NCBI RefSeq assembly: GCF_030389965.1 | Contig: NZ_CP128401.1 | Span: 124,001-188,000 of the forward strand | Source of the DNA: Candidatus Chlorohelix allophototropha | Lineage (GTDB): Bacteria > Chloroflexota > Chloroflexia > Chloroheliales > Chloroheliaceae | Length of the DNA: 64,000 nucleotides | Direction: 5' to 3' | In this document: positions 2,734 through 33,491 of the stretch, piece after piece | How the letters are laid out: every line of letters begins with the position of its first letter | Numbering within the stretch: the first letter of the stretch is position 1 | Notes under the pieces: model-generated | The model's input: the letters and a program-made list of their open reading frames with translations, nothing else | Told to the model about the DNA's origin: nothing | Database searches by the model: none | Translations under genes and position numbers: made by a program

Positions 2734-3411
2734 ATGCAGGGAAAAAGCTTTAATTCCGAGTTTAAGCTAAAAATAGTTCAGGCGGTACTGAGCGGGGAGA
2801 AAACCGTAATCCAAGTGTGTATGATTTTATAATTTCAACACCAGAGATTGTTCGGAGTAATTCGTAACTACCACTTCACAATCCTGGTATTTTCGCTTAC
2901 TCTTGTACACAATTGTTATCAACTGTTGGTTGAACACTACCACCGTGCTTATGGGGAGGAGTGTCTTAAAGTGTATCAGCCTCAGAACTTGGCGGAAGTG
3001 AACGAGGTTACCAAAGCTTTCAAAGAGCATTACAACTGGGAAAGACCGCATCAGGGATTGAGTTGTAAAAACAAGCCGCCCAGAGTAGCCTTTCCCACTC
3101 TATCGGCACTACCAACCTTGCCGCTGCTGCGCTGGCTCCTGGCGGTAGACAAACGCCGTTTTGTGCGCAAGGTGCAGAGTAACGGGGCAGTCCAGGTAGA
3201 TAAACGCAGTTACTATTTGGGGCAGGAGTGGGTAGGGAAGTATGTAAATCTGGAGGTAGCGGCTGAAGAGCGGGAGTTTGTGGTATGGCAAAAGGATAAA
3301 GTGATAAAGCGGTTAGGCATAAAGGGATTAATTGGGCAGGCACTGGGGCAGGCAGAGTATTTGCAGCTTATCAAGGAAGAAGCTCGCTCAGAAGTGCGCC
3401 AAGCTAGATAA
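2734..3411 (+). pseudogene. Integrase-core transposase remnant, internally deleted
   Basis: From ATG 2734 the frame encodes a 29-residue OrfA-type helix-turn-helix start (FKLKIVQAVLSGEKTV) and then stops at 2829-2831, just inside an unrelated AT-rich stretch. Transposase homology resumes near 2910 with the C-terminal part of a DDE integrase core (EHYHRAYGEECLKVY, then HYNWERPHQGL) and a C-terminal beta-rich domain to 3411. The DDE aspartates expected upstream are missing. It belongs to the IS bounded by the 17-bp ends at 2644 and 3469. Confidence 0.72.
2817..2866 (+). repeat. Left copy of ~48-bp inverted repeat
   Basis: This stretch, with core TATGATTTTATAATTTCAA, is repeated in reverse complement at 3531-3580 with one single-base gap and a few mismatches. 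It interrupts the transposase remnant exactly where its homology breaks. It resembles the end of a small non-autonomous element. Confidence 0.75.
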
Positions 3412-3530
3412 TTTCAAGCCTTGCTATAACTTAGCTTGACTACCTTGGGCTTGGGTACAGTCCAGTTTTAGCGTGCCCTAAAATGATGCAGGTATTTTAA
3501 GCTTGTGGCTTATTCGGGTGAACTAAACGG

Positions 3531-3580
3531 TCACGAATTACTTCGAACCCTCCCAGTGTTGAAATTATAAAATCATATAC
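3531..3580 (-). repeat. Right copy of ~48-bp inverted repeat
   Basis: This is the reverse-complement partner of 2817-2866 (core TTGAAATTATAAAATCATA). It lies about 60 bases outside the right end of the decayed IS, so the pair encloses part of that IS plus flank rather than coinciding with it. Either two solo insertions or the ends of one composite segment could explain this. Confidence 0.75.
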
Positions 3581-3655
3581 TCTATTCATTATCGCTTTTC
3601 TGACCTATCTCTAAGAACTTACTGAGTCTAAAAAGACGATTTGAATTCAAAAATG

Positions 3656-5153
3656 TTGACGTTTAGATAAACGGGGCTATAGGAAATAGAAACCCGTATC
3701 GGAACTTACAAAAGAATGACAGTTTGTAGCCAGTTACCAGCAAATTTAACAGCGAATATTCGTCAAATTAGAGGTAGAAAACCCCTTTTTGACCACCTTA
3801 TAGCGGGTAGCCGGTCTTACTTTGGTGCCAACCGCTCGACCCTTCCCATTTCCTCGCACTTTGCTGGCTTTGGCCGGACTGCCCAACTGCACAATTATTC
3901 CGGACAAGCCTCGTCGAATTTGCTGAGGGCTTGGCTGTCGTTGACTATTTTCCCAAGGTCGCAACACTTCCAAGCCCAAGCCTTGAGCGATTTGCAATTC
4001 GTCGTGTACCAAACTGACTATCGCCGTCCACAACTCAAACTGGCTCGGATAGCGCAAGCGTGGTTTTTCCCACAACAAATCTTGTTTGTCAAAACGATAG
4101 CCGTGTTCTATCGAGTAACGCCTCTTGTAATACGACCAGACTTGCGTCAGGTCAAGCTCAGTTTGACCCGACCACACATACCAACTTTCCAGAGGGTCAT
4201 GGGTTTTACCACTGGCTGCCTCACGCTGTATTCGGATTATGCTCAGTGCCAGTTCAGGTGCTTCCCTCAAATGCAGCTCAGTCCATGCGCTTACTACCAG
4301 TTTGTGTCCATTTTCGTCCGTCCCAACCCACACTCGCTGCGGCAAACCGTGCGTATTGGGATCATTACATTGGAAACGAGCACCGTGTTTAGCGGGAGCG
4401 CCGCGACCTCGTTTCTGCTCATCTCTCACCACTTTTCGATAGAATACTCGGTTAGACTTGAGCCGCAGCAGCAAGTCATAGTCCTTACTGCTATTTTGAA
4501 TAAATGCTTTGGTGGGGTAGTACCGGTCTCCCAGATTGAGCGGTCTTTCAGCAAAATATGGGCGCAATTCGCTCAGTTGCTGGCTGGCTACCTCTGCTGG
4601 TGTTTGACTGGTTTTGATCCTGCGGTTGGAGACAATGTATGTATGGCTACTGGTTTGAGCCGGCACCACCACCACGGTCGAGAATTGCCAACCCACGGTC
4701 ACGGGCTTATCACAATTGGGCAGATTGTGTTTGTAAAGCCAGCCACGATCTGCAGATGTAGTGCTAAAGGGTCGCTCGATATTGGTAGCATCCACTGCCA
4801 GTACCAATCTTTCACCATCGAAGGGATGAGGGGCGTAGCGCACCATGGTTTGCTCGAAGCGAGTTTGGTTAACTTGACCCATTTGCAAAGCCTCATACAA
4901 ACTGGGCCATTTTCGCTCAAAATTGGGCGAAAGGGTCAGTTCCAGTACCGATTGAGCCTGGCTTTCTGTCATAAGGGCATCCGCCAGATTAAACAATGCG
5001 TCACTGGCGTATTCAAAGCAGTCATAGATTTCGTGCCGAAATTCTTTAAGTGTGTTAAGGTTCATACGAGTAGTGTCCTTTCTCAATTAGAACATTACTC
5101 GTCTGGGCAAGTTGTGCCAACACTGCTTGCCCTTTGGTTTATCTAAACGTCAA
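3656..5153 (-). mobile_element. 1498-bp insertion sequence, copy 1
   Basis: The ends are a perfect 17-bp inverted repeat, TTGACGTTTAGATAAAC at 3656 and its complement ending at 5153. AAAATG flanks both sides (3650-3655 and 5154-5159), so it looks like a simple insertion with a short target duplication. It holds one transposase gene on the minus strand. A copy of the same length and with an identical protein lies at 28142-29639 in the same orientation. Confidence 0.95.
3746..5086 (-). CDS. DDE transposase (IS4/IS701-like group), copy 1
   Basis: This 446-residue transposase cuts and joins the ends of the surrounding IS. Likely catalytic acidic residues are the Asp in LVLAVDATN, the Asp in LNLGDRYYP and the Glu in YSIEHGYRF, in the usual DDE order with a beta-rich stretch between. 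The start is ATG at 5086, preceded on the minus strand by AGAAAGGAC. The frame is intact and the protein is identical to that of the 28-29.6 kb copy, which suggests recent activity. A long open frame on the opposite strand is a shadow of this gene. Confidence 0.93.
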   Translation of the reverse strand: MRKDTTRMNLNTLKEFRHEIYDCFEYASDALFNLADALMTESQAQSVLELTLSPNFERKWPSLYEALQMGQVNQTRFEQTMVRYAPHPFDGERLVLAVDATNIERPFSTTSADRGWLYKHNLPNCDKPVTVGWQFSTVVVVPAQTSSHTYIVSNRRIKTSQTPAEVASQQLSELRPYFAERPLNLGDRYYPTKAFIQNSSKDYDLLLRLKSNRVFYRKVVRDEQKRGRGAPAKHGARFQCNDPNTHGLPQRVWVGTDENGHKLVVSAWTELHLREAPELALSIIRIQREAASGKTHDPLESWYVWSGQTELDLTQVWSYYKRRYSIEHGYRFDKQDLLWEKPRLRYPSQFELWTAIVSLVHDELQIAQGLGLEVLRPWENSQRQPSPQQIRRGLSGIIVQLGSPAKASKVRGNGKGRAVGTKVRPATRYKVVKKGFSTSNLTNIRC

Positions 5154-20056: not shown

Positions 20057-21910
20057 ATGGGTGTTAAAAAGTATCAAAAAGTAATTGCGCTGATGATAAT
20101 TATAGCTATATTCCCGCTTCTAGCCACTCCGCTGTCCGCCGCTGCTATTTTGCAAGTAAGCGGGCCAGATTGGCAAGCCACTGGGGTTTATTTACCAGAG
20201 GGGCAGACTAGTCTGCTTTGTTTTCAGGGCAACCAGCCCAACACTGTCTTGCTAACCGGTGGCAACCCCACCGGCACCTCTTCCCTCAACTACCGCACCG
20301 GGAAATTAATCCGCTTCAGCGAACGCAATCTTACCCTGTGCAACGAAGATAGCGGTTTGCAATTCAACATCGATAACCAGCAACAAACCGCCTGGAGTAT
20401 CAATTCGCTTAATGATGAATTTCCTCTCACCTTCGTGCCTTCCGCAATTCCCGGTGATGGCACTCAGCAGGTTTATGGCTTAAAAGATCGTCGGCTATTT
20501 TACAGTCCGAATGGTGGTAAAAATGCACTGGAAAGAGGCGCTCAGTTTGCCGGTCGGGTAAAATCGGTGGCAACTACCGTTCAGGATGGCAAAGTTGTAT
20601 ATATTATGGTCAAGGAAAACGGCGACCCGGCTCAGGATGTGGCTTATCCTGAACCTTTCAATTATAGTCTTTATGCTTCGAAGGATACCGGGATAACTTG
20701 GGAAAAAACCTATAGCAGTTCCATCAGCGGTTACACCAACTATATTCCTATGCTCCAAATGCTGCCGGGACAGGCTACCCCTTCCAGTTGGCTGATAATG
20801 GCGGTACGTTCAGGCTCAACTCCAACCGGAACCCGCACTGTTTACCAGCTTTCAATTGATGGAGGGCACACTTTTAAGGAACTTGGCGCACGAGGTCATT
20901 ACGACGAACTTTGGTTTGCCCGCACCAATACCGCGGTGGTTAGGCTTTCTTCGAGGCAGATGAGCCTATCACGCGATGGCGGAAATAGTTGGAACCCTGT
21001 TAAATTGCCAGCGTTTGTGCCGGATAATAGCATGGATCAGAATAGCATTTACATGCTGCAAGCCAGAAACGCCCCGGATAATTTGTTTGTTATGCAGCGA
21101 GTTATTAGCACTTACGAGAGTAACGGGGTAAAGGGAACGGTTTATATCCATTATTCCCCGGACGGTGGCAGTACCTGGCAGGAATTACCTTCGATTGATC
21201 TACCCTATTTTGGACTTGATGGAGCAGTTATCAGCCCATATGCGCCTACTACGCTGTTGGCTATTAAAGACCGCCAGATATACAAAATGGAATTACCACA
21301 GGTGGAGCAGACCCTGACTGCTAGAGTGGATAACAATGGAGCAGCCCCGAATTATTACCCCGAAACGGGTCACAATATATCACCACTGTTTTGGCGGTAT
21401 TGGGTAAGTAACGGCGGGTTAGCCCAATTTGGATTCCCACGTACTGAAGCTATGCGCGAGTTCAATCCGGAGGATGGTAAAATTTTCACAGTGCAATATT
21501 TTGAACGTGCTCGTTTTGAATACCACCCTGAATTTGCCGGTTCAAATTACGAAGTGTTGCTGGGTTTGCTGGGTAAACAGTTAACTGTCCAGCGAAACGA
21601 AGTGCCGTTTGAGCGAAAGGTTGGGTCACCAGACAGTTCGGAAATAACCTATTTCCCGCAGACCGGACATTATCTGGCTTTTGGTTTCAAGCGCTATTGG
21701 GAGCAAAACGGCGGGCTAGGGCTATACGGTTACCCAATTTCAGAAGAATTTAGCGAAAAGAACCCGGATGACGGTAACTTCTATACCGTTCAGTATTTCG
21801 AGCGGGCACGCTTTGAATATCACCCGGAATTGAAAAATACTGGTTACGAAGTCCTTTTAGGATTGCTGGGTAATAGCTTGCTGAGAAGCAAAGATTGGTT
21901 AGGGCAATGA
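20057..21910 (+). CDS. Secreted Asp-box beta-propeller protein with two C-terminal ETGH/YW modules
   Basis: This 617-residue exported protein starts at ATG 20057 with AAAGGAGA upstream. A signal peptide covers about 27 residues (ending near PLSAAA). Four Asp-box motifs (SKDTGITW ~206, SIDGGHTF ~265, SRDGGNSW ~304, SPDGGSTW ~366) suggest a sialidase or HCF136-like propeller. Two tandem modules of about 90 residues follow from ~430 and ~528, each with ETGH or QTGH, YW..NGG, FG.P or YGYP, QYFERARFEYHPE and LLGLLG. The role is unknown; the module is likely a surface-binding or cell-wall domain. The neighbouring GH17 gene carries the same module. Confidence 0.85.
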   Translation: MGVKKYQKVIALMIIIAIFPLLATPLSAAAILQVSGPDWQATGVYLPEGQTSLLCFQGNQPNTVLLTGGNPTGTSSLNYRTGKLIRFSERNLTLCNEDSGLQFNIDNQQQTAWSINSLNDEFPLTFVPSAIPGDGTQQVYGLKDRRLFYSPNGGKNALERGAQFAGRVKSVATTVQDGKVVYIMVKENGDPAQDVAYPEPFNYSLYASKDTGITWEKTYSSSISGYTNYIPMLQMLPGQATPSSWLIMAVRSGSTPTGTRTVYQLSIDGGHTFKELGARGHYDELWFARTNTAVVRLSSRQMSLSRDGGNSWNPVKLPAFVPDNSMDQNSIYMLQARNAPDNLFVMQRVISTYESNGVKGTVYIHYSPDGGSTWQELPSIDLPYFGLDGAVISPYAPTTLLAIKDRQIYKMELPQVEQTLTARVDNNGAAPNYYPETGHNISPLFWRYWVSNGGLAQFGFPRTEAMREFNPEDGKIFTVQYFERARFEYHPEFAGSNYEVLLGLLGKQLTVQRNEVPFERKVGSPDSSEITYFPQTGHYLAFGFKRYWEQNGGLGLYGYPISEEFSEKNPDDGNFYTVQYFERARFEYHPELKNTGYEVLLGLLGNSLLRSKDWLGQ

Positions 21911-22039: not shown

Positions 22040-25000
22040 TTAATTTTTTGCTTGCCTAGTAGACTCATTGCCCAACAGACCCAACAGTACTTTGAACTGA
22101 GCAGGTTTGTCAGGATGCCATTCAAAGCGGGCACGTTCAAACCACTGGGTCAATACTTTATCTCCACTAGAGTTTATTTCAACCTTGGGTTGTGTTAGCG
22201 GATATCCGAAAAGTGCCAGACTTTCTTGATAACTTGCGCCGGGTTTCCCGTCAAATTCCAACCCATGTGATTGCCAATATGATTTGAAGCCCATACCTGC
22301 TACCTGATCACAGACATTTAGGTGGGTTTCTACGAACCAGATGCAATTATTTTGAGGTCCACTATCTTTGGGCTCTTTCTGCCAGTCAATCCTTTTTATT
22401 TTTAACTGTTCATCCCCCAAACGACCCAGCAATATATCGTAGGGGGATTGGTTTTCAGGGTGATATTCAAATCTATTGCGTTCAAACCATTGGGTTACAT
22501 AGCTCAGCTTGGTATCTGAATTAGTTTCAAAATGGGTGGTAGTTACCGGGAAACCGAACACGGGCAACCCCCCATTTTGCTCCCAGTAACTGCGGATGCC
22601 ACCACTCGTACAATAGGCTGTTTCACTAAAACAATTTACATTTTCCGGCAGTATCAGCTGGTTTGAAGTTTTTAACTCATAAATAATATCATCCAGATAA
22701 AAAGTTATGGGTTGATTCGCAGTCCAGCCAAAACCGCCGATGAGCTTATACATATCTCGATTGGAAAACTCAACATCGACAGTATATTTTTGCCAATTGG
22801 AGGATAATGACACTTCCTGCTTTATTGGTGGGCAAAGTGAATCTGGGTGTGGTTTTATCGGTTTACTGCAATCGGTTTCACCCATGTCAGTGGTCTGGTA
22901 GCCAATTCCTCCCACCAGCACCGTAATTTTAGCGCCCGGAGTATCGCTTCTAGCCCAAAATGACAGACGTGTGGCTTTAGACAAATCATACCCACCGTTT
23001 GTGTCTCCCCAATTATCAGCCGGTTCCTGCCAGTAAATACCACTCCAGCCCAACTTTCCGGGGGTATAGCTTACTTTAATCGAAGTAAGTCCTCGATACG
23101 AATTATTAGTTGAGCATTCACTAAATGAAAGCTGTCCGGGTGTAGCGCCATCGCCCATCCAACCGGACGCATAGAAGTGGTTTTCACGAGCATTGCTATC
23201 GGTATAAATTGAGAAAACGTTCGGTGGTGGTAAAATCATTGAAACAGCCGGGTCATACTCATATTTAATATCGTCAAGGAAAAAAGTAGCGCCCTGTGGA
23301 CTGGCACATTTATTGGTAGTCCAGCCAAAACCGCCAACCACTCGGCTTAAATCGGCATTCTGCAACTCAATGGTATATTGCTGCCAAGTATTTGTAAGTT
23401 CAATGAAACCGGTGGTACGAGGCTGCCGTAGAGAATCATTATAAGGGTCTGCATCGCTCCCAATCCCTCCGGCAAAAAACTGAACTTTCTCACCTCCTAT
23501 AGCTCCTTTAGCCCAGAAAGTAACCTTGTTAGCCCAACTGAGGTCAACCCCACCTTTCAGAGTGCCCCAGTTATTTTCCGGATTTTGCCAGTAGACTCCA
23601 GCCCAACCCAGCATACCATCAGGGTTAAAGCTTGCCCGAACTGCCATTTCGCCACTGTGCGGGTCGCTGCGGTCACAACTATACATATTGATACTATCAA
23701 TATCACCCATATAACCGGAAGGTATGAAGGTGGCAGTTTCTGCCAGCCATTCAGTATAAATATTAAGAGGTTTGTTCTTGGCAGTCGCTAGCTGATTTGA
23801 TATAGCTAGGTTTGTGTTTTTGTTCAGAAAACTGACAGGTGGCGGTGCAGTTATAGCTGAATAACCAAGTTCGCCAGCAGGAAGCAGAATACCCCAAAAA
23901 GGATGTTTTGCAGAGCGATCTGTATAGCTGTAACCCCAGTTTTGACCGACCCTGCCCGGTTCCTCTACCTTCCAGAGTTCGTCGAAAGTGTCAAAATACA
24001 TGTAATCCACTCCGGCTTGTTCCGCTAGAGTCATAAATTCCAGCATAAACCTGCGCTGATTTTCCGGACTCGGTACCGCTTTATCTTGTGGTTCTCCACT
24101 GGAAGGCCATCCCGTTTCACCGATGACCACTCGTTTATTCTGTCCGGGATACTCGTGTTCAATCAACTGCTGGATGGCTTTGTAGCGTTTCACTGTAAAT
24201 TCGGCAGCGCCGTCAATTGGCAAACTGGTCCAGAAGGGGTAGATGTGTACCATTACCATATCCACCTGATCTAAGATGGGACGGTAGAGTGAATTAATTT
24301 GCGGGTTAAAATCGTTGATGTCTTTGAAATCAAATTGGATACTTTCGATTTCTGCGGTCATAAGCGGAATACCAAGACCTTTTAGAGCCTGCTTGACCTG
24401 ATTAATATATTGCAGCAAATAATTTATTTCATCTTTCTTTTCACCCTTAGCGTTATTTCTTAGATAAAATTCATTCCCGACAATAACTCCGGCAAGTTTA
24501 TTGGTTTTAGCTAAATTTATCAGTGCTTGAACTTCAGTATCATCGTTAGGTTTTTGATCTATCCAAGCGCCCGCATAAACCGGAAGACCTAATGAGTTAG
24601 CAATTGCTGGAACTTTTTGATTGATTCCGGTCGAGGCATAAGTGCGAATAGCATTGCTGGTATTTATAAGGCGGTACAGGTCTTCTTCAATATTTTTAGA
24701 GGTTGGTAATTCCATTCCACCGGGGTATTGGCAATCCCGGAAGGGACTATAACCAATTCCCCGAACAGATTTAGGATAAGCATATGCAGTAAAAGTAATA
24801 CTAGCTAAATCCCAGGCGGTATTTGCCGGAACAGTAATACGAAGGCTATGCTTGCCGGATTGCTTAACCACTACGGTGGTTTTTATCGGTTCATGTGCTG
24901 CAGCATAATACTCGTTGGCTATAATCGGTTCAACGGTACGTTTACTCCACAGGAGTTGCCCATCAAAATATATATCGGCTTCTCGGTTTTTATAAGGAGA

Positions 25001-25387
25001 GTGAAGCCCTTTGCTCTCTTTATCGGGCCAGGAGAGAGTCATTACATAGACAGTGGGTGCGTAAACATCTGGCAAGATAATTTCACCACTGGCAGTACCA
25101 CCATTCCAGTCTGACGGATTACAGGAATTGGGATTAGCGCCTAGAATAATACTTCCTTCTGGCATACTAGCAAGCCAAGAAGCCGCACAGGCTCCCCCTG
25201 CGTTTGCACGGTTGATCACATGCCCGCTAAAAGTCAGCTTATCCGGTAGCACCGACACAAGTTGACCTAATTGAGAAGAGGCTGCGTCAGTGTTAAGGAA
25301 AAAGGTTAGACCAAGCAGCGCTAAAATACTCGAACTGATCAGCCAAAAGGATTTTTGGACCACCCATGCTTTTACTAGGTCTCCCAT
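22040..25387 (-). CDS. Multidomain exported GH17-like beta-1,3-glucanase
   Basis: The protein has 1115 residues. A membrane or signal helix lies at about 12-32. A beta-sandwich of about 160 residues follows. Next is a TIM-barrel region beginning RGIGYSPFRDCQYPGG, with GVIVGNEFY (~304, likely acid/base Glu) and VVIGETGWPSSG (~423, likely nucleophile Glu), the two motifs of family GH17. Two related carbohydrate-binding-like modules (~545-725 and ~735-925) share YMGD/WMGD, LGW.G.YWQ, NNWG and FFLDDI. The C-terminus has two divergent ETGH/YW modules with QWFERNRFEYHPE and QWFERARFEWHPD. It probably acts on extracellular beta-glucan. It is the last gene of a three-gene minus-strand group. Confidence 0.85.
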   Translation of the reverse strand: MGDLVKAWVVQKSFWLISSSILALLGLTFFLNTDAASSQLGQLVSVLPDKLTFSGHVINRANAGGACAASWLASMPEGSIILGANPNSCNPSDWNGGTASGEIILPDVYAPTVYVMTLSWPDKESKGLHSPYKNREADIYFDGQLLWSKRTVEPIIANEYYAAAHEPIKTTVVVKQSGKHSLRITVPANTAWDLASITFTAYAYPKSVRGIGYSPFRDCQYPGGMELPTSKNIEEDLYRLINTSNAIRTYASTGINQKVPAIANSLGLPVYAGAWIDQKPNDDTEVQALINLAKTNKLAGVIVGNEFYLRNNAKGEKKDEINYLLQYINQVKQALKGLGIPLMTAEIESIQFDFKDINDFNPQINSLYRPILDQVDMVMVHIYPFWTSLPIDGAAEFTVKRYKAIQQLIEHEYPGQNKRVVIGETGWPSSGEPQDKAVPSPENQRRFMLEFMTLAEQAGVDYMYFDTFDELWKVEEPGRVGQNWGYSYTDRSAKHPFWGILLPAGELGYSAITAPPPVSFLNKNTNLAISNQLATAKNKPLNIYTEWLAETATFIPSGYMGDIDSINMYSCDRSDPHSGEMAVRASFNPDGMLGWAGVYWQNPENNWGTLKGGVDLSWANKVTFWAKGAIGGEKVQFFAGGIGSDADPYNDSLRQPRTTGFIELTNTWQQYTIELQNADLSRVVGGFGWTTNKCASPQGATFFLDDIKYEYDPAVSMILPPPNVFSIYTDSNARENHFYASGWMGDGATPGQLSFSECSTNNSYRGLTSIKVSYTPGKLGWSGIYWQEPADNWGDTNGGYDLSKATRLSFWARSDTPGAKITVLVGGIGYQTTDMGETDCSKPIKPHPDSLCPPIKQEVSLSSNWQKYTVDVEFSNRDMYKLIGGFGWTANQPITFYLDDIIYELKTSNQLILPENVNCFSETAYCTSGGIRSYWEQNGGLPVFGFPVTTTHFETNSDTKLSYVTQWFERNRFEYHPENQSPYDILLGRLGDEQLKIKRIDWQKEPKDSGPQNNCIWFVETHLNVCDQVAGMGFKSYWQSHGLEFDGKPGASYQESLALFGYPLTQPKVEINSSGDKVLTQWFERARFEWHPDKPAQFKVLLGLLGNESTRQAKN

Positions 25388-25435: not shown

Positions 25436-26209
25436 CTATTGGAAAGGTATTTTGCTGGCGTTATAAACAAAACTGGTTATAAACCAGCAGCCTGTTGCAT
25501 TTCTTTCTAGGGTCCAGTGTTCTGAGCCAGTTGAGCCGATTTGTCCATTTTTTCTGGAGTGATTATTCTCACAGGTTTCATTTGGGTTACTTGCAGTGGT
25601 GTAACAAAAAATGCTGCCACTAGTAAACTGTGCTATATCTCCTACTACCATCTGACCTTTTAATTTTGTGCTAGGGGCAGGTTCAATTTGATAATGAAAA
25701 GTTGTGATATTATGAAAGGCTTCGAAAAGCCCGATATACCGATCTTTCGGAATGCTCCATTTATCAGTATCTGATTTTCCCCCGTCAAGAATTACCGGGT
25801 TAGTCGAACTGGCTTTAAAAATCTTATTCAAAATAGGTTCGGCTGTATCCTTATTATCGGTCATTGCGGCTTCACTCTCGGCATTAATAACCTTTGAGAT
25901 TGTCTCAACGTCATTGCTGCCCTCGTAATCGCAGTTCGATTTTAAGGAAGTAGTGGTTGGAATAGATAAAGAGGTATTTGGTGCAGAGGTGACTTTTGGT
26001 CCATTGATCTCCACAAGCCATAGTTTAAAAGACCCACCCATAGTGTTAGTTATAATTACTATAGCTAACATTGCAACCACAATTAATAACAGTAAAGAAA
26101 AGGTCATTAACGGGCCTAATTTGGAAAGCCACTCAAAAAAGCTTCTGGGGGGTTGCTGTTTAGATCCATTTTCCGTAGAATCGGGCTGCGAGTTAGATTC
26201 ATTTGGCAT
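25436..26209 (-). CDS. Single-pass membrane protein, NTF2-like extracytoplasmic domain possible
   Basis: The protein has 257 residues with a hydrophilic N-terminal tail of about 30 residues, one TM helix (MTFSLLLLIVVAMLAIVIIT) and an exported domain with a Thr/Ser-rich linker. The domain has VINAESEAAM near its start and SEHWTLERNATGCWFITSF at its end, a pattern seen in NTF2/SnoaL-like folds. This is weak inference. It lies 48 bases upstream of the GH17-like gene and is probably co-transcribed. Not recognised beyond that. Confidence 0.7.
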   Translation of the reverse strand: MPNESNSQPDSTENGSKQQPPRSFFEWLSKLGPLMTFSLLLLIVVAMLAIVIITNTMGGSFKLWLVEINGPKVTSAPNTSLSIPTTTSLKSNCDYEGSNDVETISKVINAESEAAMTDNKDTAEPILNKIFKASSTNPVILDGGKSDTDKWSIPKDRYIGLFEAFHNITTFHYQIEPAPSTKLKGQMVVGDIAQFTSGSIFCYTTASNPNETCENNHSRKNGQIGSTGSEHWTLERNATGCWFITSFVYNASKIPFQ

Positions 26210-26353: not shown

Positions 26354-28012
26354 CTAGGCAATTTTGGAAAGCCGCTCGGTAGCTGCCTGTGAGGGAGACC
26401 AGAACCAACCCTGCGTATCCCATACCCGTGCATAGGGGAATTTCTGAGCTCCTTTGTAGGCTTCTATAGCTTTGGTTTTATCGCCCAAACTCTCGGAAGC
26501 TTGACCCATAATGAAATAGGAAGCGCCCACATCATTTAAAACGCCTTGTGCAAAAATGGCTTTCTTGGTAGTTTCATCCACTGCTCCCACCGGTGGAAGC
26601 GGTTTCCCACTATTGCTATAGCCCTCCTGTATTCGAATAGCTTCACTCTCAAACTTGATTACACATACCTGCGCTTTTTGATAAGCTTCATAATAGTTTT
26701 TATCCGCTAGCGCTTTCCAAGCTGCCACCGTCAATTGTTCGGATGTGCTAGTGCCATATGTAGCGGCGATTGCAGGTGACCAGAACCAACCTCTAGTATC
26801 ATATGTGCGTGCATAAGTGAACTTTTGCGCACCTTTGTATGCAGCTGCGGCTTTTTCAGAATCGTTCAGCTTTTCCGCCGATTGACCCATAATGAAGTAA
26901 GCTGTACCTACATCGTTTACAGGTCCTTGCTCAAAGATAGACTTCTTGGTGGCTTCATCTACAACGCCGGTGGGGGGAAGCGATTTGCCACTTTTTACAT
27001 AGCCATCTTGTAATCGAAGCGCCTCTTCCTCAAACCTGTTGACACATTCCAAAGCTATTTGATAGGCATCCCGGTAATTATTAATTTTGAAAGCGTTCCA
27101 AGCAGTGGAAGTCAAATTCTCTGAACTCAAACTATAGCGCCACTTGAAATAATGCTGTCCAATATTGCCCATCTCAACTTTGAAAGGGTCAGGATTCGAA
27201 GGAGTATAAGTTAGTACACGGCGTTCGAACATCTGGACTAATACATCTTTTTCCTGCCCAGCTACTATTGCTTTAGTCCAGTAGGCTTCGGAGATAGGGT
27301 AGCCAAAAACATTTGCCACGGGGTTATCTGTATACACTTTGTCTTTAACAAAGTTGGAACCATTCCAAGTTAAACCTTGAATGTTTTGGTAATCCAAAAA
27401 AACTTGGGGGATATTATGACCCAGAATGGTATCGTACTGACCTATACTGAGTTGTGCGGGAGGATTGGACAAAGTGGTAACCTGTCCGGCTTTATTTATC
27501 GACAGATTAGCTACTTGACCGATTAGGTTGAGAGCAGTATTTTGCCCCGGACGGGTGGTTACAATCTCTTTAAAACTGGCATAAACTGGTGCGCTGCCAT
27601 TACTGCCATCGCCATTATCATCGCCTGCAACCTGTGTTTGGCTTGGACTCAATTGGACAAATAGGGTGTTACCATCCTGCCGAAGCCCGGTAACTAGCTC
27701 TTTGGTCAGAAGACCATTGGTTACATAGGTGCCATCGGCCGACAATTCCATCCGGCTCTTGTCAAAATATTGTACCTGTCGTTTGCCTCCTGCGATTTCT
27801 AGGTAAATCTCCTGGCGAATACTAAAATTGTTTGGTCCCCACGTATAACCGCGGCCCGCATCAGGAACCTCATCTACCAATTTGTCACTATATTCCCAGA
27901 ATTGTTTGAACTTTGAGTTCCCAAAATCCGGAGCGGCATTAGCCAAGTTGTGGGTAGCTAATTGAAGTAAAAGGGAAAGGGTTATCAAGAACCCGATATT
28001 TTTCAGCCGCAT
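26354..28012 (-). CDS. Secreted protein with repeat module and two TPR-like repeats
   Basis: The protein has 552 residues from ATG 28012, with AAGGGGG upstream. A signal peptide ends near NLANAA. Residues ~30-300 hold a divergent form of the window's recurring module (FKQFWEYSDKLVDE, WGP, VQYFDKSRMEL, and later VFGYPISEAYW, VQMFERRVLTYTP). The C-terminal half is a duplicated unit of about 115 residues with AW.A....Y..AYQ.A..C...FE.EA.R.Q.GY and a YFIMGQ....L.D...A...YKGAQKF block, resembling TPR helices. Exact role unknown. It leads the group ending with the GH17-like gene. Confidence 0.8.
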   Translation of the reverse strand: MRLKNIGFLITLSLLLQLATHNLANAAPDFGNSKFKQFWEYSDKLVDEVPDAGRGYTWGPNNFSIRQEIYLEIAGGKRQVQYFDKSRMELSADGTYVTNGLLTKELVTGLRQDGNTLFVQLSPSQTQVAGDDNGDGSNGSAPVYASFKEIVTTRPGQNTALNLIGQVANLSINKAGQVTTLSNPPAQLSIGQYDTILGHNIPQVFLDYQNIQGLTWNGSNFVKDKVYTDNPVANVFGYPISEAYWTKAIVAGQEKDVLVQMFERRVLTYTPSNPDPFKVEMGNIGQHYFKWRYSLSSENLTSTAWNAFKINNYRDAYQIALECVNRFEEEALRLQDGYVKSGKSLPPTGVVDEATKKSIFEQGPVNDVGTAYFIMGQSAEKLNDSEKAAAAYKGAQKFTYARTYDTRGWFWSPAIAATYGTSTSEQLTVAAWKALADKNYYEAYQKAQVCVIKFESEAIRIQEGYSNSGKPLPPVGAVDETTKKAIFAQGVLNDVGASYFIMGQASESLGDKTKAIEAYKGAQKFPYARVWDTQGWFWSPSQAATERLSKIA

Positions 28013-28141: not shown

Positions 28142-29639
28142 TTGACGTTTAGATAAACGGGGCTATAGGAAATAGAAACCCGTATCGGAACTTACAAAAG
28201 AATGACAGTTTGTAGCCAGTTACCAGCAAATTTAACAGCGAATATTCGTCAAATTAGAGGTAGAAAACCCCTTTTTGACCACCTTATAGCGGGTAGCCGG
28301 TCTTACTTTGGTGCCAACCGCTCGACCCTTCCCATTTCCTCGCACTTTGCTGGCTTTGGCCGGACTGCCCAACTGCACAATTATTCCGGACAAGCCTCGT
28401 CGAATTTGCTGAGGGCTTGGCTGTCGTTGACTATTTTCCCAAGGTCGCAACACTTCCAAGCCCAAGCCTTGAGCGATTTGCAATTCGTCGTGTACCAAAC
28501 TGACTATCGCCGTCCACAACTCAAACTGGCTCGGATAGCGCAAGCGTGGTTTTTCCCACAACAAATCTTGTTTGTCAAAACGATAGCCGTGTTCTATCGA
28601 GTAACGCCTCTTGTAATACGACCAGACTTGCGTCAGGTCAAGCTCAGTTTGACCCGACCACACATACCAACTTTCCAGAGGGTCATGGGTTTTACCACTG
28701 GCTGCCTCACGCTGTATTCGGATTATGCTCAGTGCCAGTTCAGGTGCTTCCCTCAAATGCAGCTCAGTCCATGCGCTTACTACCAGTTTGTGTCCATTTT
28801 CGTCCGTCCCAACCCACACTCGCTGCGGCAAACCGTGCGTATTGGGATCATTACATTGGAAACGAGCACCGTGTTTAGCGGGAGCGCCGCGACCTCGTTT
28901 CTGCTCATCTCTCACCACTTTTCGATAGAATACTCGGTTAGACTTGAGCCGCAGCAGCAAGTCATAGTCCTTACTGCTATTTTGAATAAATGCTTTGGTG
29001 GGGTAGTACCGGTCTCCCAGATTGAGCGGTCTTTCAGCAAAATATGGGCGCAATTCGCTCAGTTGCTGGCTGGCTACCTCTGCTGGTGTTTGACTGGTTT
29101 TGATCCTGCGGTTGGAGACAATGTATGTATGGCTACTGGTTTGAGCCGGCACCACCACCACGGTCGAGAATTGCCAACCCACGGTCACGGGCTTATCACA
29201 ATTGGGCAGATTGTGTTTGTAAAGCCAGCCACGATCTGCAGATGTAGTGCTAAAGGGTCGCTCGATATTGGTAGCATCCACTGCCAGTACCAATCTTTCA
29301 CCATCGAAGGGATGAGGGGCGTAGCGCACCATGGTTTGCTCGAAGCGAGTTTGGTTAACTTGACCCATTTGCAAAGCCTCATACAAACTGGGCCATTTTC
29401 GCTCAAAATTGGGCGAAAGGGTCAGTTCCAGTACCGATTGAGCCTGGCTTTCTGTCATAAGGGCATCCGCCAGATTAAACAATGCGTCACTGGCGTATTC
29501 AAAGCAGTCATAGATTTCGTGCCGAAATTCTTTAAGTGTGTTAAGGTTCATACGAGTAGTGTCCTTTCTCAATTAGAACATTACTCGTCTGGGCAAGTTG
29601 TGCCAACACTGCTTGCCCTTTGGTTTATCTAAACGTCAA
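28142..29639 (-). mobile_element. 1498-bp insertion sequence, copy 2
   Basis: It has the same length, ends (TTGACGTTTAGATAAAC) and internal sequence as the copy at 3656-5153. AGGATTC is repeated on both sides (28135-28141 and 29640-29646). Because each copy has its own target repeat, they look like independent insertions rather than the arms of one composite transposon. Confidence 0.95.
28232..29572 (-). CDS. DDE transposase (IS4/IS701-like group), copy 2
   Basis: The 446-residue protein is identical to that of the first copy, with intact VDATN, LGDRYY and IEHGYRF acidic motifs. The start is ATG 29572. The IS lies between the secreted-protein group and the replication/partition block, upstream of the minus-strand gene starting at 28012, and may have displaced sequence on either side. 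Confidence 0.93.
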   Translation of the reverse strand: MRKDTTRMNLNTLKEFRHEIYDCFEYASDALFNLADALMTESQAQSVLELTLSPNFERKWPSLYEALQMGQVNQTRFEQTMVRYAPHPFDGERLVLAVDATNIERPFSTTSADRGWLYKHNLPNCDKPVTVGWQFSTVVVVPAQTSSHTYIVSNRRIKTSQTPAEVASQQLSELRPYFAERPLNLGDRYYPTKAFIQNSSKDYDLLLRLKSNRVFYRKVVRDEQKRGRGAPAKHGARFQCNDPNTHGLPQRVWVGTDENGHKLVVSAWTELHLREAPELALSIIRIQREAASGKTHDPLESWYVWSGQTELDLTQVWSYYKRRYSIEHGYRFDKQDLLWEKPRLRYPSQFELWTAIVSLVHDELQIAQGLGLEVLRPWENSQRQPSPQQIRRGLSGIIVQLGSPAKASKVRGNGKGRAVGTKVRPATRYKVVKKGFSTSNLTNIRC

Positions 29640-31903: not shown

Positions 31904-33382
31904 ATGGTGGAAAGACGGACTTCAAATATGTTGGATATAGAATCTATTCTGAAGGAAGGCGAAAGTGACAGGGTTGAGTTTAAGATAGCTCCTCCTCGTG
32001 CGAATGAAATGGCTGAACGTATTTGCGGCTTTGCCAATTCGATTTCAGGAGGTTATCTGATTATAGGAGTACAGGATAAGAACTGGGGGGTAGTCGGAGT
32101 CAAGAACGTCTCCGATACAATTGACCAAATCCTGTACGCTGCCCGTCTATGCCACCCTCAAGTACATCTGAATCCACCGCTACCCCAGACTGTACTCATA
32201 AATGATCGACAATTAGTGGTAGCCCATATACCGCCTAATGATGGCACGTTGTATCAATCTGGAGGTGTTTGTTGGATTAGAAAAGGCACTCATACCACCC
32301 CTATGGTAGTATCAGAGATTCAGCGCTATCTTTACCATAGAGGAGTTCTTGACTGGGAAACTCAACCTGTGCACCGAGCAACTCTTTCTCACCTGAATAG
32401 AGATATTATCGATCTATATCTGAACCACCGTCCTAGCAGGAACAGGGGAGTCTTTCGCCCTTCTTCGATGGAAGATATCTTGGTTAATCTTGAATGTCTT
32501 ACGGTAACTAGTGATGCGAAGGGAAAAGAAGTGCTACGCCCCACTAACGCTGGGCTGTTGCTCTTTGCTGATAACCCGCAGGAATTCCTGTTACAATCAG
32601 AGGTAGTGTGCGCTCTTTTTAGAGATAATTCTGGTCTCAAACGCTTTTCTGATCGACGTGTTTTTCAGGGTCCTATCAGCGATCTGATTGACCAGGTTGG
32701 TACTTGGTTTGAACGTAATATTGCTGTACCGGCTCGCGTGAAAGGTTTTAGTCGTATAGATGAGCCGGAATATCCTCTAGAAGTTCTGCGAGAGGCAACA
32801 GTAAATGCATTGGTACACCGGGATTACAGCCTCAAAGGTGAGAATGTCCGCATATTTTTCTATTCTGACCGGATTGAGTTTCGCAATCCTGGATTGCTTA
32901 TGCCGGGTCTTAACATTGAGGATTTGAGAGAGGGTCGGGCAGGTTCTAAACTCCGAAACCCTGTTATAACCGGAATACTCAGGAATTTACCGGGTAGTTA
33001 TATGGATCGGATGGGCAGTGGTATCCCATTTATGCTGGATGAAATGCGACAGTTAGGACGCCGTCCACCAGAATTTCGAGAACAGGGAGAGTTTATTGTG
33101 ACTTTCTATAAGGAAGCCAATACACAAGCTGAGGAAATGAGAACTCCCTTGACCCAAAAAGAAAAGGCTGCTGAAAGTGATTCTGTAACCAGTGGTCTTC
33201 AAAAACAGCGACAAGAATTGGCGTTGCAATATATCCATAAAAACGGTTATATAACCAACGGTCAGTATCGGGAACTTGTGGGAGCTTCGGATAGAACAGC
33301 CTATCGGGATCTGGAAGCATTGGTAGCACAAGGTACTCTCAGGACTACCGGTCAAAAAAGGTCTAGACGCTACATGTTTTGA
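31904..33382 (+). CDS. AlbA_2 (Schlafen-like) domain, ATPase and HTH regulator
   Basis: The protein has 492 residues. The N-terminal ~130 residues match the AlbA_2/Schlafen DNA-binding fold (EGESDRVEFKIAP, FANSISGGYLIIGV, VAHIPPNDGTLYQ, WIRKGTHTTPM). The middle holds a GHKL-like ATPase of the HATPase_c_4 type (REATVNALVHRDYS, RIEFRNPGLL, NPVI, MDRMGSGI). The C-terminus is a winged helix (NGQYRELVGASDRTAYRDLEALV). Such proteins are usually transcription regulators; some are linked to defence. ATG 31904 lies next to the operator array; an in-frame ATG at 31928 is possible. It sits between the initiator-like gene and parA. Confidence 0.85.
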   Translation: MVERRTSNMLDIESILKEGESDRVEFKIAPPRANEMAERICGFANSISGGYLIIGVQDKNWGVVGVKNVSDTIDQILYAARLCHPQVHLNPPLPQTVLINDRQLVVAHIPPNDGTLYQSGGVCWIRKGTHTTPMVVSEIQRYLYHRGVLDWETQPVHRATLSHLNRDIIDLYLNHRPSRNRGVFRPSSMEDILVNLECLTVTSDAKGKEVLRPTNAGLLLFADNPQEFLLQSEVVCALFRDNSGLKRFSDRRVFQGPISDLIDQVGTWFERNIAVPARVKGFSRIDEPEYPLEVLREATVNALVHRDYSLKGENVRIFFYSDRIEFRNPGLLMPGLNIEDLREGRAGSKLRNPVITGILRNLPGSYMDRMGSGIPFMLDEMRQLGRRPPEFREQGEFIVTFYKEANTQAEEMRTPLTQKEKAAESDSVTSGLQKQRQELALQYIHKNGYITNGQYRELVGASDRTAYRDLEALVAQGTLRTTGQKRSRRYMF

Positions 33383-33491
33383 GTAGTAAGAGCAGACGTA
33401 ATTTGGTTGGTATGACACGGATTCTTAGTCGGCTATAGCCTGAATGCTGGGCATAGGTAGAAAAATAGTTTCCATATATAAAAGGAGTTTT

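Follow-up and report, generated by a model that had tools for sequence, protein, structure and literature searches.

A modular GH17 glycoside hydrolase gene with putative glucan-binding modules and two associated genes in 'Candidatus Chlorohelix allophototropha'

Bacterial members of glycoside hydrolase family 17 (GH17) have been characterized both as hydrolases and as transferases (PMC11005184, PMC13188888, PMC9026390), and GH17 domains are also present in NdvB-type proteins. Among the described enzymes are RmBgt17A, a beta-1,3-glucanosyltransferase of Rhizomucor miehei (4WTP, 4WTR, and 4WTS), the transferase MlGH17B of Muricauda lutaonensis (PMC11005184), and the laminarinase FbGH17A of Formosa (6FCG). 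In this study, we analyzed a GH17 gene in a 64,000-nucleotide window (C3:124001-188000) of the genome of 'Candidatus Chlorohelix allophototropha', which comprises 6,086,194 bases in five contigs. This organism is a photosynthetic lake bacterium and a filamentous phototroph. The genome of strain L227-S17, approximately 6.08 Mb in total, is divided among two chromosomes (2.96 and 2.45 Mb), a 375-kb chromid, and two plasmids (241 and 55 kb; PMC10972752), and the window very likely sits on the 375-kb chromid. The original prediction, made from the sequence of the window, described a GH17-like glucanase and regarded the family as mostly plant and fungal, a view that the bacterial enzymes have made out of date.

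The gene formed a single intact frame with an ATG start (Table 1). Judging from sequence comparisons and structure models, its product is likely to be a retaining GH17 enzyme that is exported and that both binds and cleaves beta-1,3-glucan. Two of its modules would hold the enzyme on the glucan, and the C-terminal modules would be of the host type. The enzyme would co-operate with the products of two neighboring genes, and the set would have been acquired as a unit.

Compared with RmBgt17A, the window protein has the same barrel, both catalytic Glu residues, and the equivalents of Trp65, Asp67, and Trp157, and both lack the plant-type extra subdomain. In contrast, RmBgt17A is a single domain, the loop after strand 5 is longer in the window protein, and Leu309 and Thr387 stand in place of Tyr102 and Glu158. 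MlGH17B and FbGH17A are likewise bacterial GH17 enzymes with the beta-1,3-glucan activity of the family, but accessory modules of the window type are not among the features described for them in the excerpts used. The GH17 catalytic domain itself is ordinary. Less ordinary are the module family, its company with enzymes of the beta-1,3-glucan type across phyla, and the three-gene set. The new elements are a layout and partner gene shared with Haliscomenobacter, modules resembling carbohydrate-binding module (CBM) families 30 and 11 beside GH158-like barrels in Omnitrophota, and an apparently co-acquired set fitted with host-type modules.

Table 1. Features of the GH17 gene and its two partner genes in the window
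Feature	Position	Strand	Size or residues	Basis or remark
Modular GH17 enzyme, probably exported, whole gene	22040..25387	-	1115 aa	
Predicted signal peptide or N-terminal anchor	25280..25387	-	1-36	Hydropathy
N-terminal beta-rich domain without known family	24773..25258	-	44-205	Common to Haliscomenobacter protein; low-confidence beta prediction
GH17 catalytic (beta/alpha)8 barrel	23894..24769	-	207-498	Pfam and PDB searches, model
Glu306 codon, predicted proton donor	24470..24472	-	306	GNE motif, just after strand 4; alignment and model
Glu424 codon, predicted nucleophile	24116..24118	-	424	ETGWP, end of strand 7; aligns with residue mutated in 4wtr/4wts; model
CBM-like module 1	23249..23767	-	541-713	Homologues: module 2; proteins of Omnitrophota, Haliscomenobacter, and IMG/VR
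CBM-like module 2	22670..23215	-	725-906	Jelly-roll fold near CBM30/CBM11 (model, fold search)
C-terminal class-typical module, copy 1	22403..22639	-	917-995	Sequence comparison
C-terminal class-typical module, copy 2, with short insertion	22064..22342	-	1016-1108	Sequence comparison
Partner gene 1, N-terminal membrane segment and extracytoplasmic domain	25436..26209	-	257 aa	Related to SnoaL-like Haliscomenobacter protein; 48-bp gap to GH17 gene
Partner gene 2	26354..28012	-	552 aa	N half, degenerate C-terminal-type modules; C half, two TPR-like repeats (WD..GWFW)

GH17 barrel and catalytic residues

The Pfam model of GH17 (PF00332) matched residues 412-494 with 35.6 bits against a cut-off of 28.2; in the genome search the score was 38.1 bits. 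A single-sequence search of PDB with phmmer found 4wtp (RmBgt17A; E = 1.5e-24 over residues 226-494) and 8akp (G7048; E = 1.6e-5), and no further GH17 structure at E <= 1. With a profile of seven bacterial GH17 domains, 4wtp was reached at 2.8e-51 and 6fcg (FbGH17A) at 1.8e-35, and the same profile also found 8akp, GH157 structures (9fz9 and relatives), and plant glucanases. The catalytic Glu residues lie in the motifs GNE (Glu306) and GETGWP (Glu424), and Glu424 aligned with the position at which the ligand-bound mutant 4wtr/4wts carries an Ala substitution. In the model of residues 36-520, eight strand-helix units were formed, with Glu306 (model residue 271) after strand 265-270 and Glu424 (model residue 389) within strand 384-390. 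When this model was searched with Foldseek, the top structures were 4wtr (E = 9.9e-15) and 4wtp (8.3e-14), with a TM of 0.79 by target, and 8akp; barley 1ghs ranked eighth (3.7e-8).

These results agree with the curated family model, the (beta/alpha)8 barrel, and the two Glu positions of GH17 (clan GH-A). The originally predicted barrel was thereby recovered by Pfam, PDB profile, and fold searches and by the model; 4wtr/4wtp were the best matches, and the Glu residues were placed after strand 4 and at the end of strand 7 rather than elsewhere. In addition, both Glu residues and 20 columns invariant across diverse bacterial GH17 domains are retained. In the tree, the window domain paired with that of a Haliscomenobacter protein (support 100/99), outside the separate supported group of FbGH17A.

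Accessory modules and their relatives

The closest relative was a 722-aa protein of Haliscomenobacter hydrossis plasmid pHALHY02 (HALHY_RS33835, WP_013769098.1), annotated as 'glycosyl hydrolase family 17 protein', with 48% identity over the GH17 domain and 39% over 671 aa. Its N-terminal domain, GH17, and module follow one another as in the window protein, and its gene shares with the window gene the partner gene upstream; unlike the window protein, it has one module instead of two and no C-terminal class-typical modules. Of three further module genes alongside it on pHALHY02, one encodes a protein of two modules, one a 197-aa protein with a single module, and one a module with a possible outer-membrane barrel after it. 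On one IMG/VR contig (L069), three module genes are consecutive, and the third is a module-GH17 fusion. On another (L067), an Ig-like domain and GH17 precede the start of a module, and the frame then runs into an open reading frame (ORF) with serine-recombinase features; in this GH17 gene (3001-4581), the module breaks off after its first residues, adjoining that ORF on the opposite strand. The combination of GH17 and module was thus found in Chloroflexota, Bacteroidota, and two unassigned IMG/VR contigs.

The highest mean hydropathy of any 19-residue stretch in the window protein (1.94) was found at residues 13-31, and the protein is likely exported via a signal peptide or N-terminal anchor. 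The N-terminal sandwich of the original prediction recurs in the Haliscomenobacter protein (30% identity over 119 aa, E = 5e-7) and is on that ground a genuine conserved domain, but its beta-rich structure was predicted with low confidence (predicted local distance difference test [pLDDT] below 50). This domain had no match in 20 Omnitrophota regions.

The two modules of approximately 175 residues after the barrel are mutually similar, as had been noticed originally (37.4% identity over 187 columns, E = 1.6e-39). Pfam gave no family for residues 540-906, and for 17 module relatives it gave one weak CBM_4_9 match and one weak CBM_11 match (best E = 5e-4). The model of residues 716-1115 had confident strands in the module, and a Foldseek search with the module found CBM30 (1.2e-7), CBM11 (4.1e-7), and CBM29 (1.7e-6), and also CBM22, CBM4, and CBM16, at 11 to 16% identity. 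The beta-glucan-binding CBM30 and CBM11 modules (1WZX, 6R31, and 1V0A) share the jelly-roll fold with the window module (Foldseek E of 1e-7 to 4e-7). However, the identity to these modules is 12 to 15% and Pfam gave no match, so that the modules resemble CBM30 and CBM11 without an assignment to either family. A search of PDB with a module sequence profile returned marginal xylanase CBM matches alone (E = 0.018). The choice-of-anchor J model (NF038128, cut-off 30) scored 30.9 for a two-module Omnitrophota relative and 15.9 for a single-module relative, and did not match the window protein. Taken together, sequence and modeled fold suggest that the ~175-residue modules form a family of glucan-binding domains not yet catalogued.

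By sequence, the relatives of the modules were found in six Omnitrophota loci first and then in 142 of the 197 genomes of that Omnitrophota group. The Omnitrophota proteins (L001-L006 and L102-L121) belong to the same module family, at approximately 40% identity, and occur with the same TPR-like repeat as the window proteins. Unlike in the window, the partner enzyme is a GH2/GH158-like barrel and not GH17, which was absent from the six Omnitrophota genomes examined first, and the modules are often free-standing secreted proteins with one or two modules. Of the 77 ORFs lying no more than two places from a module gene in the 20 Omnitrophota regions, 32 were homologues of the GH2_C/GH72-like barrels of L004, compared with none of the 74 ORFs farther away (Fisher p = 9e-12). 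Independently, Pfam placed Glyco_hydro_2_C in 29 of 76 ORFs near module genes of these regions. For two of the Omnitrophota barrels, the best PDB match was GH158 (8e-7 and 1e-10), a beta-1,3-glucanase family. GH94, GH116, and PilZ genes were present within the same module clusters.

The C-terminal modules have a different distribution. The two copies in the window protein are 37.5% identical (E = 6.6e-18). The original prediction of two ETGH/YW modules holds with respect to homology, the relationship to true ETGH copies being clear, but the ETGH motif itself has decayed to SETAY and VETHL. The module was found at 76 places in the genome, including the GH17 gene itself and approximately 75 others. 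With the full GH17 protein as query, matches were obtained in 131 of the 158 Chloroflexia genomes, and the matches listed fall on these modules. Their pattern is ETGH...YW..NGGL..FG(F/Y)P...FERARFE(Y/W)HPE, which had no Pfam match in the proteins scanned; for the GH17 protein, no Pfam family covered the C-terminal modules at E <= 10. They may resemble LGFP repeats. An exported-looking 617-aa protein with Asp-box/BNR propeller-like features, encoded at 20057-21910 (+) and convergent with the GH17 gene, carries two well-kept C-terminal ETGH modules. The C-terminal modules may have been joined to a foreign enzyme as a surface module of the host type, perhaps attaching it to the cell surface.

The arrangement, which the original prediction called five-part and unusual, consists of six domains of four kinds. 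It is unusual in that residues 540-906 match no Pfam family; however, the order of sandwich, GH17, and module recurs on a Bacteroidota plasmid and that of module and GH17 on an IMG/VR contig, and the C-terminal modules are ordinary for the class.

Partner genes, distribution, and probable acquisition

The 257-aa protein encoded immediately upstream of the GH17 gene was related to a 277-aa protein encoded directly upstream of the Haliscomenobacter GH17 gene (26% over 191 aa, pairwise E = 1e-13). Among 72,556 plasmid records, this upstream gene was its sole match at E <= 1. The 277-aa protein has a membrane segment, a SnoaL-like region, and, unlike the window partner, an extra N-terminal EAD11-like domain with a near-threshold score (24.9 bits against 26). 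The EAD11 family is known from signaling adaptors, and this gene (L061, 4534-5367 of pHALHY02) could link glucan sensing to EAD-type signaling. The C half of the 552-aa partner, the product of the second gene upstream of GH17, matched repeats in nine Omnitrophota ORFs at module loci. Its best match was a free-standing two-repeat Omnitrophota protein (E = 3.7e-30, 29% over 272 aa), and most of the remaining repeats are fused to the GH2/GH158-like barrel. From these comparisons, the GH17 protein and the 552-aa protein appear to be two foreign parts joined to host-type modules.

Among the 158 Chloroflexia genomes, a clear GH17 domain was present only in the window genome, with three marginal matches elsewhere. 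The same four matches and no others were obtained in 400 Chloroflexota genomes, none being clear in the other 399. The ~175-residue modules were found in 1 and the TPR-like repeat in 2 (the second weak) of the 158 genomes. The rarity of GH17, modules, and repeat beside the wide occurrence of the C-terminal modules supports a co-acquired enzyme set with native C-terminal modules. The GH17 gene and its two neighbors appear to share one acquisition, given that relatives of each are found near similar enzymes in two phyla of unrelated bacteria.

Other origins and roles found no support. No match was found in 50,697 phage records or PHROGs, nor in scans of viral collections in which the full protein and the C-terminal modules served as queries, and PADLOC gave no match for the three cluster proteins. 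Two identical 1498-bp insertion sequence (IS) copies (3656-5153 and 28142-29639) flank the region in the same orientation, each encoding a DDE_5 transposase and bounded by 17-bp terminal inverted repeats (TTGACGTTTAGATAAAC). Each copy apparently has its own target duplication (AAATG and GGATTC), which indicates two recent independent insertions rather than a composite transposon. Farther along, 31904-33382 (+) encodes a protein with SLFN/AlbA_2 and HATPase_c_4 domains. In PADLOC it resembled pAgo-type models (E = 5e-26), and it may be a defense gene or an artefact of a fusion partner; ParA follows at 33444.

Proposed activity: hydrolysis or transfer

In the proposed mechanism, Glu306 would give a proton to the glycosidic oxygen and Glu424 would form a covalent glucosyl-enzyme intermediate. 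Water (hydrolysis) or a second glucan chain (transfer, creating a beta-1,3 or beta-1,6 link) would then resolve this intermediate. The two ~175-residue modules would keep the enzyme on the glucan, and the C-terminal modules would perhaps attach it to the cell surface. The enzyme may co-operate with the membrane-anchored SnoaL-like protein and the TPR-like repeat protein, and all three genes would have been taken up as a unit from outside the ordinary Chloroflexia repertoire. The predicted action on beta-1,3-glucan, also part of the original prediction, is supported by the family and the partner genes.

The choice between hydrolysis and transfer is about even, with a slight lean to transfer or remodeling. 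As a remodeling transferase, the enzyme would cut the beta-1,3-glucan of its own cell or of a neighbor and transfer the piece to a different chain, whereby a surface or matrix glucan would gain branches or length; we give this nearly an even chance. The solved relatives from the single-sequence search are transferases (PMC11005184, PMC9745967), and the GH17 domain of Pseudomonas aeruginosa NdvB belongs to the wider set. Transfer by RmBgt17A requires Tyr102, Trp157, and Glu158, and conservation of Trp65 among GH17 transferases has been reported (PMC11005184, PMC9745967). The window protein has Trp275 for Trp65 and Trp386 for Trp157, the one of the three required residues that is kept, but Leu309 and Thr387 for the other two; the Haliscomenobacter domain has Leu, Trp, and Asn at the three positions. 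The transferase G7048 keeps the Tyr but has Tyr187 and Gln188 at the Trp157 and Glu158 positions (PMC9745967), so the loss of Glu158 alone is compatible with transfer. The absence of the plant-type subdomain would fit a transferase, but it does not separate bacterial GH17 hydrolases from transferases (PMC11005184). In the tree, most deep forks were without support, and no placement among transferases or hydrolases was obtained. The genome contains no GH16 gene, as expected if feeding on glucan were not the purpose, and a filamentous phototroph has little obvious need for such feeding. However, no beta-1,3-glucan synthase was identified, and the sole GH94 match (G000 C1:1021239-1022507, L122), inside a 2898-aa open frame, is presumably rather of the kind in cyclic beta-1,2-glucan synthases.

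A degradative laminarinase, which would hydrolyze the beta-1,3-glucan of algae or fungi in lake water to obtain carbon or to weaken competing organisms, is a serious possibility that falls short of even. Tandem CBM-like modules are typical for enzymes on outside polymers, the Glu158 equivalent is lost although it is retained in Azospirillum, Bradyrhizobium, P. aeruginosa NdvB, and the IMG/VR domain of L067, and the Omnitrophota partners resemble GH158 and GH94, consistent with glucan breakdown. This reading fits poorly with the setting, which is not that of a polysaccharide utilization locus: the neighbors are transposases, a Uma2 protein, the Asp-box protein, and the two partner genes, with no transporter, GH3, or GH16 adjoining the GH17 gene, and the characterized FbGH17A lies in a different tree group. 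A mostly inactive barrel serving as a structural or sensory scaffold, a glucan-binding receptor with its membrane-anchored partner, is very improbable. The EAD11-like domain of the Haliscomenobacter partner and the presence of four accessory modules for one catalytic domain would suit such a role, but the retained Glu residues and invariant columns argue for an active enzyme.

Several points weigh against an exported glucan-cleaving enzyme acquired together with its neighbors. The cluster has no compositional sign of transfer, its guanine-plus-cytosine content (0.40-0.45) being like that of the surroundings, so that the argument for acquisition is one of distribution. The glucan activity of the enzyme and the carbohydrate binding of its modules are predicted, and the three-gene co-operation is deduced from gene order and homology. 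The barrel model was built on four sequences with pLDDT mostly 70-90, and the confidence for the N-terminal domain is lower still. The Omnitrophota loci are the top-scoring ones and not independent by descent. Finally, two of the three RmBgt17A transfer residues are replaced, a point that G7048 makes undecisive.

Tentatively, and with more doubt than confidence, the ~175-residue module may be the founding member of a new, beta-1,3-glucan-specific CBM family. Module, WD..GWFW repeat, and SnoaL-like membrane partner may jointly be the sign of a surface glucan system not yet described, which would be common among Omnitrophota and would have reached Bacteroidota and Chloroflexota with GH17 replacing the GH158-like enzyme. 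The analysis provides a testable assignment for a module family without a Pfam name in a little-known phylum, and ties three otherwise unannotated genes to beta-1,3-glucan. It also points to a Chloroflexota phototroph in which a foreign enzyme would have been equipped with native C-terminal modules, a case with a bearing on the role of these very common modules.

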